Below are positions 13,605 through 57,010 of a DNA stretch of 64,000 bases, piece by piece. The stretch spans positions 2,805,001 through 2,869,000 of the forward strand of contig NZ_CP042910.1 in assembly GCF_008298035.1 (NCBI RefSeq), written 5' to 3'. Origin of the DNA: Gimesia maris. Lineage in GTDB: Bacteria; Planctomycetota; Planctomycetia; Planctomycetales; Planctomycetaceae. The translations under genes and the position numbers were made by a program. Positions within the stretch are counted from its first letter, which is position 1. Every line of letters starts with the position of its first letter. Below the pieces are notes generated by a model that did no database searches, was not told where the DNA came from, and saw only the letters and a program-made list of their open reading frames with translations.

Positions 13605-14720
13605 TCAACCTCGGGCATAGGGACCGGTGGCGATTCCCTGGTATTGATCCAGGCCTGCCTTTAACGCGGCGCGGACGGCAGCGGGTACTTGTTCAATCTG
13701 GGCGCGGCTGATGTCCAGATGGGTGCAGGCCCGCAGCGTGGAATTGCCCATCGCTCCGATTCCGACACCTTCTTTTTTGAGGGCGGCTGACAGTTGCATC
13801 GCATTTCCCCGCTCCGGATGCACATCAAAGAAGACCAGGTTGGTCTCGGTGTGCTCAGGATTGATGGAAATCCCTTCAATCTCGGCCAACTGCTCGGCGA
13901 GGAAACGGGCATTGTCGTGATCTTCCTGCAGACGTTCGATATTGTTTTCCAGGGCATAAATGCATGCGGCTGCGACAATGCCCGCCTGCCTTAAAGCGCC
14001 GCCAAATATCTTGCGAGAACGGCGGGCGTGGGTAATTGCTTCCTGCGAACCGACCAGGATCGACCCCATCGGGCACCCCAGTCCTTTGGAAAAACAGATC
14101 GAGATCGTGTCCAGCGGGGCGCAGATCTCTTTCATCGTATAGCCGCCGGCGACACAGGCGTTAAAAATCCGTGCACCGTCCATGTGAGTTTTCAGGCCAT
14201 TCTCGTGTGCCCAGTTGCAGATGTCTGTAAGCTGATCGAGAGGGTAGTAGTGCCCGCCACCTGCGTTGGTTGTGTTTTCAACACACAGGAGTCGGGTGCG
14301 TGTCAGGTGCTGATCATTGGCGCGAATCTTTCCTCGGAGATCTTCGACCGTCAACATACCTCTTTCACCGGTCAAAGTGCGACAGCTGACACCGCTGAGA
14401 ATTGCCGGAGCCCCCCCTTCGAAGATCGCGATGTGACCGAGTTCGTGAATCAGCAGCTCATCACCGGGCAGGCAGTGAGCGCGCAGCCCCATCTGATTGG
14501 ACTGCGTCCCCGAGCAGGCAAACACGGCAGCTTCTTTACCGAGCAGGTCACAGATCATGGCTTCGAGGCGATTGACAGTCGGGTCTTCTCCATTCATGTC
14601 ATCGCCCAGTTCAGCAGAGATCATGGCCTGCAGCATTTCCGGGGTTGGTTTGGTTTTGGTGTCACTGCGAAGATCGATGAAAGACGAACTGTCTGAATCC
14701 ACGGCTGGTTTCCTTGTCAT
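13605..14720 (-). CDS. ltaE: Low-specificity threonine aldolase
   Basis: This PLP enzyme splits L-threonine or allo-threonine into glycine and acetaldehyde. The N-terminus has the family signature FIDLRSDTKTKPTPEM, followed by GDDMNGEDPTVNRLE and the VFACSGTQSNQMGL segment that binds the cofactor phosphate. The Schiff-base lysine lies in SICFSKGLGCPMGS. An H-M-D-G-A-R stretch (THMDGARIFNA) holds the aspartate that pairs with the pyridine nitrogen. The 371-residue length is normal. It is followed on the same strand by larE's region but in separate units; no operon partner is obvious. Confidence 0.94.
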   Translation of the reverse strand: MTRKPAVDSDSSSFIDLRSDTKTKPTPEMLQAMISAELGDDMNGEDPTVNRLEAMICDLLGKEAAVFACSGTQSNQMGLRAHCLPGDELLIHELGHIAIFEGGAPAILSGVSCRTLTGERGMLTVEDLRGKIRANDQHLTRTRLLCVENTTNAGGGHYYPLDQLTDICNWAHENGLKTHMDGARIFNACVAGGYTMKEICAPLDTISICFSKGLGCPMGSILVGSQEAITHARRSRKIFGGALRQAGIVAAACIYALENNIERLQEDHDNARFLAEQLAEIEGISINPEHTETNLVFFDVHPERGNAMQLSAALKKEGVGIGAMGNSTLRACTHLDISRAQIEQVPAAVRAALKAGLDQYQGIATGPYARG

Positions 14721-15736: not shown

Positions 15737-16096
15737 GGAACTTCAGGTGAAAATTGTCGGATTCCCCGCCAAGACGACAAATTAGGAACGAATCTGCTGT
15801 GGAGAAGGGAGGTTCAGTTGATAAGGGAATTTACAGACTGCCTCAGGATCTGCGATTCGTCGCATTCAGATCTTTTTTCTCATTCCCGTGACGATTATAC
15901 TGAAGCCAATGAAAACGGAGTGCTGTATCAATCCGGGAGCATCGGATTGATGCTGACTATCTAAAATACAACTGTCTGATTAAACGAATGCCTTGTCAGT
16001 CAGATGAGTATCTTCTGCATCCTCGTGTATTCGACGGAGCAGGGGAGTCGCGTTAAATTACGCAATTCATCCTATTTCAAAACTAAGAGGAAAGTT

Positions 16097-17989
16097 ATGT
16101 CTCATCGGTCCGTTCAGATTACTCGATTCCTCCTGGCGCTGATTCTGTTCACCGGAATACTCACTGCCACCAGTCAGGCGGCAAAGCTGACAGCGGAACA
16201 ACGTAAAGAACTGGCTTCGATCAAACGGAACCTGGGTAAAGTGGCCACGCTGATTCGTCAGAAAAAATATGACGAAGCAAAAACACTGACCGATGAAGAG
16301 GAAGCCAAATTCGACAAACTGGCTGCAGATGCGATGATTCCGGAAACGGATGCTGTCATCGTCAGTACCAAACGATTGATTGAAGCGCGTCGGAAAGTAC
16401 TCGAAAAAGCCATGGGAGGGGGAGGTGGTACTCCTGGTGCCAATAAAGGAATCAGTTTTGAATTGCAGATTGCACCGATTCTCAATGAGAAGTGTTCCAA
16501 CTGCCACGGCGCACAACGGGCGAGCGCGAATTTGAATTTGAGTACATTTGCCGACATGCGGAAAGGGGGGCGGAGTGGCTTGCTGCTGGTACCGGGGAAT
16601 CCGAGAGCCAGTCTGATGGCACTCAAATTGATCGCACCCGATAATCAGCGGATGCCGAAGAATGCACCGGCTTTGGAACAGAATCAGATTGAATTGATTG
16701 CGAAATGGATCCAGGAAGGTGCCCGCTTTGATGGTGAGAAAGAGACCGATCCGATTGGCGCTTCTGCAAAAGCGAAAAAGAACCCCGTCAAAGTGGTGAT
16801 GGCAACGGGAGATGAAAAAGTTTCGTTCATGAAAGACGTTGCTCCCTGGATGCTGGATTTCTGCATGCGGTGTCATAGCGGAAATAATCCAGCCAGTGGA
16901 TTCTCGGTCGTGACCTTTGAAGATATTCTACGTGGCGGTGATACCGGAGAAGTAATCGTGCCTGGAAAACCGGACGACAGCCGTCTATGGCAACTGGTCG
17001 GTTTACAGGATCCAATCAAAATGCCCCAGGGACAGGCATTGCTCAAACGAAAAAATGCCAATGATCTGAAAACCTGGATCGAAGAAGGTGCCAAATTCGA
17101 CGGTAAGAATGCCAAAGGCAACCTGCGGGAAATGGTGCCGACCGAAGATGAGCTGCGGATGGCGGAACTGGCGAATCTTTCACCCGAAAAATTTGCTGAT
17201 ATGCGCCGGGATTCACTGGAGCCGATCTGGAAGCGCGCCTTGAATAACGAAAAGCCGGAAATGCTTGAGACAGATGATTTTATTTTCTACGGGAATGTCA
17301 GTACGGATCGTCTGAAGCAGATCAGTGGCTGGGCCGAAACACAGGCAGATGGTCTACGAAAACTGTTCAATGAAAAACAGAAGCCCCTCTGGCGAGGCAA
17401 GCTGGCAGTTTACGTAATGAAAGATAGATTTGGTTATTCGGAATTCAATCAGACAATTGAAGACCGGCGGGTAGATCCCGCCACGACCTGGCATTCCAAA
17501 GTGACACCGACTTCTCTGGAAGCGTATCTGGTATTACAGGATGTTGGCGATGAGGCGACCGTGGATTCACCGGGACTGCAGACTAATGTTGTCGCAGGGG
17601 TGACCAATGCAGCAATCCAACGTGGAGAAGGGGAGGTGCCGATGTGGCTGTCCCGTGGTCTGGGCATGCTGCTGGCGGCGAATGGTTCTTCCAGTCAGCA
17701 ATATTTCGAGTCATTAAGGCAGCAGGCGCTCAATGCAGCTCCTAAAGTGACACGACCCGAACAACTGGTTGCCGAAGGGACTTTTTCACCTTCCGAAACG
17801 ACGGCTGTCGGATTTACACTGGTCGAGTTTCTGATAAATAACGGTGGTCCACAAAAGATGGCGCTGCTGTTGAAGGAATTCAAATCAGGAACTGCTGCTC
17901 CTGCCGCATTGCAGAAAGTTTATGGCACCAATCTGCGGGCACTGGCAACCGCTTATGCCAGGACTCTCCGACCCGGTAAGTTGAATTAA
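16097..17989 (+). CDS. Secreted protein with two planctomycete cytochrome C domains
   Basis: The ATG at 16097 has an AGAGG ribosome site and opens a signal peptide (LLALILFTGILTATSQA), so the 630-residue product is exported. A charged helical region follows to residue 105, then a Gly-rich linker. Two c-type haem motifs are visible: CSNCH at 133-137 and CMRCH at 256-260, each inside a planctomycete cytochrome C (PSCyt1) module with the VPGNPxxS/VPGKPDDS and RMPKNAP/KMPQGQ signatures. The C-terminal 230 residues look like a gluzincin-type peptidase-MA fold, but the HExxH zinc motif is absent (SRGLGMLLAANG at that place), so it may be inactive. A sensory or electron-transfer role in the periplasm is inferred. 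Confidence 0.85.
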   Translation: MSHRSVQITRFLLALILFTGILTATSQAAKLTAEQRKELASIKRNLGKVATLIRQKKYDEAKTLTDEEEAKFDKLAADAMIPETDAVIVSTKRLIEARRKVLEKAMGGGGGTPGANKGISFELQIAPILNEKCSNCHGAQRASANLNLSTFADMRKGGRSGLLLVPGNPRASLMALKLIAPDNQRMPKNAPALEQNQIELIAKWIQEGARFDGEKETDPIGASAKAKKNPVKVVMATGDEKVSFMKDVAPWMLDFCMRCHSGNNPASGFSVVTFEDILRGGDTGEVIVPGKPDDSRLWQLVGLQDPIKMPQGQALLKRKNANDLKTWIEEGAKFDGKNAKGNLREMVPTEDELRMAELANLSPEKFADMRRDSLEPIWKRALNNEKPEMLETDDFIFYGNVSTDRLKQISGWAETQADGLRKLFNEKQKPLWRGKLAVYVMKDRFGYSEFNQTIEDRRVDPATTWHSKVTPTSLEAYLVLQDVGDEATVDSPGLQTNVVAGVTNAAIQRGEGEVPMWLSRGLGMLLAANGSSSQQYFESLRQQALNAAPKVTRPEQLVAEGTFSPSETTAVGFTLVEFLINNGGPQKMALLLKEFKSGTAAPAALQKVYGTNLRALATAYARTLRPGKLN

Positions 17990-49542: not shown

Positions 49543-49587
49543 GATTTGTTTTTTGCTACCACGAAAAACACGAAATGACACGAACAG
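49459..49587 (+). repeat. Duplicated unit, copy 1: rbsC tail plus CACGAA repeat
   Basis: The last 28 codons of rbsC and the following CACGAA repeat recur at 49650-49776, offset by 191 bases. Substitutions occur throughout and copy 2 is two T shorter before the CACGAA repeat, so the event is not recent. Confidence 0.85.
49556..49587 (+). repeat. CACGAA-type dispersed repeat, copy 1
   Basis: CTACCACGAAAAACACGAAA followed by TGACACGAACAG, 13 bases after the rbsC stop and preceded by a T-run. Confidence 0.85.
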
Positions 49588-55316: not shown

Positions 55317-55787
55317 ATGGGCTTCTTTGACAGGTTTAAATCGAAACCAGCGGCCACCACAGTCAGTAGTGCCGACAGTGTGGCACGGATTATGGTGGTG
55401 CTGGAATGCGATGGCGACCAGGTATTATTTATTTTGCTGGCCGACGATGGCACGATCAATCGGATGGGGACGGGTACGGAAGACAATCGGGAACAGGGAC
55501 TGTTTATCGGGGTGATTGATACTGCTGCATTTGTGACAGTGCGCAGTGTCTGCAGTCCGGTCCTTGATGACTGGATCGGCGGGTATGGTGATCCGGATGC
55601 AGCGGGTAAGCCATGCAAACTGCTGGTGGGTTTTCAGACATCTGCCGGCGCAGAACTGTTGAGCCAGTGGGAGTACGGCACGGAATCCAAGGGACCGCCG
55701 GCTGAAGTAATTGCGGTGGTGAAGCAGGCCGTCCAGGCGACGGAAGACTGGTATGCGGAGCAGAAGGCGCTGTCAGCCGATGGTTGA
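55317..55787 (+). CDS. Unknown protein paired with the PARG-like gene
   Basis: I do not recognise this 156-residue family. The N-terminus MGFFDRFKSKPAA resembles short amphipathic leaders found in membrane-associated or filament-like proteins. The middle (ARIMVVLECDGDQVLFILLADDGTINRMGTG) is predicted to be mostly beta, and the C-terminus is helical (EVIAVVKQAVQATEDWYAEQKAL). A GAGG site lies before ATG 55317. Position suggests it works with the ADP-ribosyl hydrolase, perhaps as a substrate or partner; that is inference only. Confidence 0.75.
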   Translation: MGFFDRFKSKPAATTVSSADSVARIMVVLECDGDQVLFILLADDGTINRMGTGTEDNREQGLFIGVIDTAAFVTVRSVCSPVLDDWIGGYGDPDAAGKPCKLLVGFQTSAGAELLSQWEYGTESKGPPAEVIAVVKQAVQATEDWYAEQKALSADG

Positions 55788-55793
55788 GGATTG

Positions 55794-55824
55794 CTACTAC
55801 GAAAAACATAAAATGCACGAAAAT
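55794..55824 (+). repeat. CACGAA-type dispersed repeat, copy 5
   Basis: CTACTACGAAAAACATAAAA then TGCACGAAAATG, seven bases after the stop of the preceding gene; moderately diverged. Confidence 0.7.
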
Positions 55825-55922
55825 GTGCTGGTGATGTGAGGAGTGCAGGAACTTCACTTTTTCAATGAGACTTTGCAGACTTGCTGCTGTTGCCTAAGAT
55901 GGCAGTATCGATCTGTCTGGAA

Positions 55923-55965
55923 GTGAGGACGACCTCACCGCTCCTGGTTCAGCGGGGACGGCCCC
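55923..55965 (+). promoter_or_regulatory. Guanidine-II (mini-ykkC) riboswitch
   Basis: Two short hairpins each carry the diagnostic ACGR loop: GTGAGG-ACGA-CCTCAC (55923-55938) and GGGG-ACGG-CCCC (55954-55965), joined by a 15-base linker. This is the two-hairpin architecture of the guanidine-II riboswitch, where the two loops kiss when guanidinium binds. An AAGGA ribosome site lies ten bases after the second hairpin (55975-55979), so binding would be expected to free it and raise translation. The downstream gene is a Gdx-type guanidinium exporter, the standard target. Confidence 0.93.
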
Positions 55966-55986
55966 ATCAGTGTGAAGGACTATACG

Positions 55987-56307
55987 ATGTCGTGGCTGAT
56001 TCTTATCCTGGCGGGTCTATTTGAAGTGGCCTGGGCCGTGGGCTTGAAATATACAGAAGGTTTTACGCGTCTGCTCCCTTCCCTCTGGACCATCGGTTCG
56101 ATGATTGTCAGCCTGGGATTACTGGGGCTCGCGATGAAAACTCTGCCTCTGGGGACCGCTTATGCTGTCTGGGTCGGAGTCGGCGCCCTGGGAACAGTCA
56201 TCCTGGGGGTCATACTGTTTCAGGAGCCGATCAATACGATTCGGGTTATCAGTGTGCTGTTGATCCTGACCGGGCTCATTGGTCTCAAACTGGGGGCGGC
56301 AGGCTAA
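55987..56307 (+). CDS. gdx: Guanidinium exporter Gdx (SugE-type SMR)
   Basis: This small multidrug-resistance protein exports guanidinium in exchange for protons. The product of 106 residues starts [20 protein letters not shown], with the essential Glu13 in the first helix, and contains [14 protein letters not shown] and [19 protein letters not shown], which follow the Gdx/SugE rather than the EmrE/Qac subgroup. Four membrane helices are visible. The guanidine-II riboswitch and AAGGA site lie directly before the ATG, so expression should rise with guanidinium. Confidence 0.95.
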
Positions 56308-56373
56308 ACTGCCCGCGTATTCCACTTCTATAATATTTAATAAACTGGATTAAACTCTGAATGTCGTTTTTTA

Positions 56374-56404
56374 CTACCACGAAAAACTCGAAATGACACG
56401 AAAA
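56374..56404 (+). repeat. CACGAA-type dispersed repeat, copy 6
   Basis: CTACCACGAAAAACTCGAAA then TGACACGAAAA, 66 bases after the gdx stop and preceded by a T-run. Confidence 0.8.
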
Positions 56405-56464
56405 ATGTGTTTTGATTTTATACTGGTGAAGTGAAATAGGCATGAGTTACTTGAAGGAGAAATT

Positions 56465-57010
56465 ATGAGTCGTGCTTTGCTGGTGATAGATGTGCAGAAC
56501 GAATATTTCACGGGAGCGCTGCCGATTACTTATCCGGCGGGTCATCTGGAGCAGATCCTGGTGGCGATGGATGCGGCTGCCGCGAAACAGGTGCCTGTGA
56601 TTGTGGTGCAGCATCATATGACTGATCCGGACAAGCCGTTCTTTCAGAAAGGGACGCCGGGCTGGGAATTACATGATGAGGTGGCGAAGCGGCCGCGCGA
56701 ACTGCTGCTTGAAAAGACGCTACCGGGCAGTTTCACCGGTACGGAACTGGAAGACTGGTTGCGGGAGCAGAGCATCGATACGGTGACGATTGCCGGGTAT
56801 ATGACACATATGTGTTGTGATACGACGGCTCGACAGGCGGTGCATCGGGGGTTTACGGTTGAGTTTTTGAGTGATGCGACAGGGACGCTGGCGCTGTCGA
56901 ATTCAGCCGGTGAGGTGACGGCGGAAGAACTGCAGCGGTCGATTCTGTGTGCCCAGCAGATGATGCTGAGCGAAGTGCTGGACGTGGCGACCTGGATCGG
57001 GCGGCTGTAA
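56465..57010 (+). CDS. Isochorismatase-family cysteine hydrolase
   Basis: The fold is that of isochorismatase/nicotinamidase-like amidohydrolases. The catalytic triad is visible as Asp9 ([10 protein letters not shown]), Lys84 ([10 protein letters not shown]) and Cys117 ([15 protein letters not shown]), with the cis-peptide AGYMT before it. An AAGGAGA ribosome site precedes ATG 56465. Substrates in this superfamily include nicotinamide, isochorismate, biuret and ureido compounds. Its position right after the guanidine exporter hints at a nitrogen-compound substrate, but a 157-base gap with a repeat makes co-transcription uncertain. Confidence 0.9.

Follow-up and report, generated by a model that had tools for sequence, protein, structure and literature searches.

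Guanidine-II (mini-ykkC) riboswitches, such as those of Escherichia coli sugE and Gloeobacter violaceus, consist of two ACGR-loop hairpins joined by a short linker, with the ribosome-binding site a few nucleotides from the second hairpin (P2) and a gdx/sugE gene directly downstream. The mechanistic passages of PMC9094411, PMC5486947, PMC9561414 and PMC12186494 describe how guanidinium stabilizes kissing of the ACGR loops, thereby freeing the ribosome site, and the last of these, a 2025 review, places the class mostly in Proteobacteria in its remarks on distribution. We find the same hairpins, linker, ribosome-site spacing and downstream gene in the window analyzed here (the whole 64-kb stretch of DNA, 64,000 nucleotides). 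Unlike the better-known hosts of the class, the host is a planctomycete according to the preliminary description, and a PSCyt1 protein and a DUF1501 protein encoded in the window fit that assignment. The features referred to below are as follows.

55921-55965, forward strand: Rfam Guanidine-II (RF01068) match, 46.2 bits, model positions 1-48 of 48
55923-55938, forward strand: P1 hairpin, 6 bp, GUGAGG-ACGA-CCUCAC, ACGA loop at 55929-55932
55939-55953, forward strand: linker between P1 and P2, 15 nt
55954-55965, forward strand: P2 hairpin, 4 bp, GGGG-ACGG-CCCC, ACGG loop at 55958-55961
55975-55979, forward strand: AAGGA, probable ribosome-binding site, separated from the ATG by 7 nt
55987-56307, forward strand: gdx/sugE, product of 106 aa with Glu13, SMR family, probably a guanidinium exporter (PF00893, NCBIfam SugE, PDB relatives)
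56465-57010: isochorismatase gene, downstream of gdx
16004-17986: PSCyt1 'Planctomycete cytochrome C' protein, by family match

A guanidine-II element upstream of gdx

The element is a new example of a known riboswitch class. The preliminary description had called it correctly from two hairpins with ACGA and ACGG loops, a 15-base linker and an AAGGA preceding an SMR gene with Glu13, all of which are present in the sequence. A covariance search with 4227 Rfam families, the check it had proposed, returns RF01068 at this locus with both ACGR loops, at 46.2 bits against a gathering score of 32 (E 5.4e-6). This is the only Rfam match at gathering scores in the 64-kb window, and at E 0.001 the element stands alone in the 7.8 Mb genome. 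The further remark of the preliminary description that annotation may overlook the element carries little weight, as the standard Rfam threshold detects it. Both loops are closed by two G-C pairs, and the ATG of gdx (55987-55989) starts 22 nt beyond the end of P2.

The gene, whose stop codon ends at 56307, encodes a product matched by Pfam PF00893. Against the NCBI SugE equivalog it scores 136.8 bits, above the cut-off of 126, whereas it falls far under each model's own cut-off for the other 20 SMR models listed. Among solved chains, 6wk5 (E 1.3e-36) and 8vxu (E 3.6e-36) are the closest to it. Residues 1-102 align without gaps to 6wk5, which, like 6wk8, we take to be the guanidinium exporter Gdx-Clo; E13 (counted from the ATG at 55987), W16, S42, Y59 and W62 are identical, so that the glutamate singled out in the preliminary description aligns to E13 of 6wk5. 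Compared by sequence, the protein is alike to these Gdx/SugE exporters in the aligned residues, with no evident difference, and it is probably a guanidinium exporter. A search with the protein as query finds no other SMR match in its own genome.

We infer that the guanidine-II RNA directly controls gdx. A rise in guanidinium would bring the ACGR loops of P1 and P2 to kiss around two guanidinium ions; in the leader so stretched, structures trapping the ribosome site could no longer form, and the freed site would allow more exporter to be translated (an ON switch), which would in turn export guanidinium in exchange for protons. We put the probability that the gdx leader holds a guanidine-II riboswitch working by these steps at roughly 0.94.

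Two further observations concern the surroundings of the gene. The isochorismatase gene was considered as an operon partner and rejected: of 12 loci searched, with flanks of about 1.5 kb or less, only that of the close relative G146 has it next to gdx. A short dispersed repeat, CACGAAAAAC..GAAATGACACGAA, occurs on the forward strand of the window at 49560, 49749, 54296 and 56378 (four copies within 3 mismatches, against a mean of 0.00 in 100 shuffles), one copy lying between gdx and the isochorismatase gene. Elsewhere in the window, at 13608-14720 on the reverse strand, a PLP-dependent aldolase scores above the NCBI cut-offs of both GntG (guanitoxin aldolase) and low-specificity threonine aldolase, and is probably the latter.

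Conservation, covariation and the expression platform

RF01068 is matched at E 0.001 in 14 of 150 genomes of the family, in 11 of them above the cut-off. Ten of these 11 matches precede a gdx-type SMR gene and one (L010) precedes a PACE gene; among the three weaker matches L014 precedes gdx, and L012 and L013 look like chance. Phylum-wide the model matches 26 of 392 genomes, 21 above the cut-off, one of which, L028 (32.1 bits), again looks like chance. By eye we took L012, L013 and L027-L031 for chance matches, no exporter or guanidine gene following them in the sequence read.

Both loops are ACGR in all ten family gdx leaders above the Rfam cut-off, as the preliminary description would have them. 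A wider set of 14 gdx leaders (13 distinct), including L017 and L019 from other families of the phylum, has ACGA in the P1 loop throughout and ACGA (8) or ACGG (6) in the P2 loop, a constancy that is partly built in because the model favors ACGR and the leaders were picked by loop. Unlike the loops, compensatory changes in the P1 stem are not built in by the selection of leaders: P1 pairs 3 to 6 each occur as three to four standard pair types, and are unpaired in 0, 2, 2 and 1 of the 13 distinct leaders, respectively. P2 varies less than P1, and its pairs 5 and 6 are formed in only 9 of 13.

Of the 11 genomes listed for the window's genus, five have both the switch and an SMR gene with 54% or more identity to that of the window. 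Six lack both; in two of these six there is just a distant SMR protein (35-36% identity). As the gdx products of G119, G131 and G141 are 54% identical to the window's and that of G146 is 93% identical, the genus may have gained gdx more than once. In G146 all P1 and P2 bases and the AAGGA are unchanged, and the linker is changed.

How the aptamer would act on the ribosome site is not apparent from folding. The plain minimum-free-energy fold computed for 55915-56010 does not improve on shuffled sequences (z 0.08), nor does it contain P2; this is weak evidence either way because the folding model ignores loop-loop contacts; in the unconstrained fold of the window leader P2 has a probability of 0.01. 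Forcing P1 and P2 raises the predicted openness of the window's ribosome site from 0.48 to 0.64. Across the 14 gdx leaders, however, openness rises in four (by at least 0.1 in only one) and falls by at least 0.1 in four, and it stays level in G146, the nearest relative (0.23 to 0.22). The folding tests thus reveal no switching mechanism shared among the gdx leaders and no conserved expression platform. An anti-Shine-Dalgarno role of the gdx linker was rejected (p 0.58 against shuffled linkers in 13 leaders, p 0.41 against swapped partners in 14), and the window leader differs from the described members of the class in that no anti-Shine-Dalgarno was found in it. Neither a consensus promoter nor a terminator was found in 55780-56480.

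The lack of a resolvable platform, together with the patchy presence of gene and switch within the genus, is what one would expect of a relict, that is, of hairpins that descend from guanidine-II and no longer switch, leaving gdx constitutive. We consider this improbable given that P1, P2 and the AAGGA are intact to the last base in G146 despite its altered linker, and that distant relatives retain both hairpins with altered stem pairs, a pattern suggesting ongoing selection. Equally improbable is that the compound sensed by the RNA and carried by the pump is not guanidine but a guanidinyl or cationic relative of it, such as methylguanidine. No DUF1989 gene and no guanidine-I element was found in the genome, which leaves export as its only guanidine-linked function seen, and a passage of PMC5486947 reports that a methylene chain is the bulkiest group the binding site accepts, which leaves room for some derivatives; yet the full aptamer model matches, and the SMR protein is of the SugE/Gdx kind, far from EmrE. 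Chance occurrence of two GC-rich hairpins upstream of an SMR gene can be dismissed, since, common as such hairpins are, and random as some RF01068 matches in or near coding sequence elsewhere appear (L012 and L013 below the cut-off, L028 at 32.1 bits), the match here scores 46.2 bits and is unique in 7.8 Mb, 2 of 12389 background windows (counted in PACE loci) contain a double ACGR hairpin, and conservation in relatives with altered stems refutes it. A guanidine-II riboswitch acting on gdx remains our preferred reading.

Two guanidine riboswitch classes on gdx genes

Guanidine-III (ykkC-III, RF01763) has a fold unrelated to that of guanidine-II, described as a pseudoknot in a passage of PMC5696562, and precedes homologous gdx genes in the same family. 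We read the leaders of the family's best 30 gdx loci and found two ACGR hairpins (stems of at least 3 bp) in 12. Guanidine-III was sought in 20 of these 30, and at L036's gene by way of the window, whose Rfam scan does not report it at the window gene. It precedes gdx in 13 of the 20 (51.5-63.8 bits, gathering score 36).

L042, L045-L048, L051, L055, L057, L058, L060, L061, L063 and L064: gdx loci with guanidine-III (RF01763)

Five loci (L040, L044, L056, L062 and L065) have neither class, the leader of L062 resembling a decayed guanidine-II. The two classes meet even within one genus, g5, where G004 has guanidine-II and G060 and G086 have guanidine-III. That gdx in one family follows either RNA suggests a conserved regulated function served by different RNA sensors. 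The literature searched yielded no paper on guanidine-III in planctomycetes, and in a paper naming both mini-ykkC and Planctomycetes the relevant passages tie Planctomycetes to another motif.

A separate arrangement is seen in the f14 genomes, where divergent guanidine-II pairs lie within a few hundred bases of each other in 8 of the 10 genomes with matches. At two such loci, L067 (G207:C61) and L068 (G158:C1), ORFs that by eye resemble an ABC transporter lie on one side of the pair and ORFs resembling urea-carboxylase-associated or guanidine-breakdown proteins on the opposite side.

Guanidine-II leaders on PACE genes

Taken alone, the window element extends a known class by one probable planctomycete member; greater interest lies with its relatives. 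The one family match that does not precede gdx lies before a gene of the PACE family (BTP, PF05232; AceI, PA2880), a protein family different from that of the window's SMR gene.

L066:4468-4899, reverse strand: PACE gene of L010 (G018), with a guanidine-II leader

Here RF01068 scores 35.2 bits ahead of a 143-aa protein that scores 165.2 bits on PF05232 (cut-off 25.6) and 143.2 on the NCBI PACE model (cut-off 80). G018 has no close gdx, its SMR match being only 30% identical, and it is the only genome with this PACE protein among 149 of the family. The relatives of the protein in named genomes, up to 66% identical, are nearly all alphaproteobacteria by name, so the gene was probably acquired by transfer.

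Among the 152 relatives we took the 80 best-kept (L071-L150) and sought leaders by a hairpin rule: a pair of ACGR hairpins, each with a stem of 4 bp or more, separated by 20-60 nt and lying within 150 nt upstream. By this rule 50 of the 80 have a double ACGR-hairpin leader directly upstream; the background is 2 of 12389 windows (overlapping, both strands) in PACE loci and none of 16000 mononucleotide-shuffled leaders. At the Rfam curated threshold 32 of the 80 are found (13, 9, 7 and 3 by batch). Many PACE genes of this one sampled group thus share guanidine-II leaders with gdx. On a protein tree of 80 rows (the protein of L124, a single residue long from the start assigned to it, was omitted from the tree and the residue counts, and L124 was retained in the leader counts; the G018 protein was added), the switch label changes 10 times as opposed to 23.9 for shuffled labels, and is clustered without forming one clade.

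PACE leaders differ from gdx leaders in the linker, which contains CCC...GGG in 48 of 51 as compared with 0 of 14 gdx leaders and about 3% of shuffles. The motif could represent an additional small hairpin, or else a masked anti-ribosome-site. Forcing P1 and P2 opens the predicted ribosome site in 41 of 51 PACE leaders, a trend. In separate tests, a third hairpin in the linker found no support (the next inner pair forms in 19 of 38 distinct loops, against a mean of 16.6 in partner shuffles, 1751 of 10000 of which reach 19), and neither did an anti-Shine-Dalgarno role (p 0.33 against shuffled linkers, p 0.09 against swapped partners).

Does switched PACE replace Gdx? Of the 50 genomes whose PACE gene is switched, 7 encode an SMR protein that scores 100 bits or more against the SugE model (four above the cut-off) and 43 lack one; of the 29 with unswitched PACE, 18 encode such a protein (nine above the cut-off) and 11 do not. 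L095, which lies on a contig from the same strain as L094, was left out of these counts. Fisher's exact test gives p 1.6e-5 at 100 bits, a line chosen post hoc, and 0.012 at the curated cut-off, values that overstate the case because the genomes are related (14 of the 29 unswitched tree rows are one Methylobacterium-Roseomonas group) and because the unswitched genomes tend to be larger and the assemblies include MAGs of uncertain completeness. RF01068 does occur in five of the 29 unswitched-PACE genomes, in three of them (G568, G593 and G567) directly before a SugE gene. In Paracoccus litorisediminis (G550) it stands at both genes, at SugE with 33.1 bits and at PACE with 31.6 bits, just below the cut-off. 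G527 and G555 have an extra guanidine-II away from PACE, before an ORF that by eye resembles urea-carboxylase-associated (DUF1989) proteins.

Two residues follow the switch in 51 switched and 29 unswitched proteins: Ser13, two positions before the conserved Glu15, is found in 90% of the switched versus 21% of the unswitched, and Trp127 in 94% versus 28%. Shared ancestry could explain this tracking, and the G018 protein itself has Leu13.

The first PACE substrate, chlorhexidine, carries two biguanide groups, and short diamines were reportedly identified later as substrates of AceI. The text of a 2018 review (PMC6195760), in which 'guanid' does not occur, states that the substrates tested were mostly biocides and that physiological ones are 'yet to be described'. 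The link between PACE and guanidine is a genomic association. It makes it likely, though with clearly less assurance than for the gdx switch, that this PACE group, which is widespread among alphaproteobacteria and probably reached one relative of the window's host by transfer together with its leader, comprises guanidinium exporters under guanidine-II control that often replace Gdx. If so, guanidine would be a physiological substrate for part of the PACE family, and PACE would be a guanidine exporter family unrelated to SMR. A sensor on 50 of 80 PACE genes, with 43 of 50 genomes lacking a gdx-grade SMR protein, points to a natural substrate for some members of a family regarded mainly as one of antiseptic efflux.

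No link between PACE and guanidine riboswitches appears in the literature searched, and an earlier mention is possible in Sherlock et al. 2017 (PMC5340285) or in the supplements of Weinberg et al. 2010 (PMC2864571). The relevant part of PMC3766115 assigns 65% of mini-ykkC regulons to multidrug transporters and does not name PF05232 or COG4125; PACE genes could be among these transporters. The guanidine exporters named in the corresponding section of PMC12186494 are SMR and MATE-type, 'pace' occurring there solely in an author name, and a passage of PMC7736828 proposes MATE and PnuC for guanidine-IV. The word is absent from PMC7266159 and PMC7736828, and the sole 'guanidin' match in PMC9045395 is a reference title. 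As a last observation, a Devosia sp. MAG (G556, the genome of L120) has at L151, positions 1501-1750, a guanidine-II of 43.9 bits followed immediately by an ORF of about 58 codons for a small hydrophobic protein and then by an ORF that by eye resembles ATP synthase subunit a.
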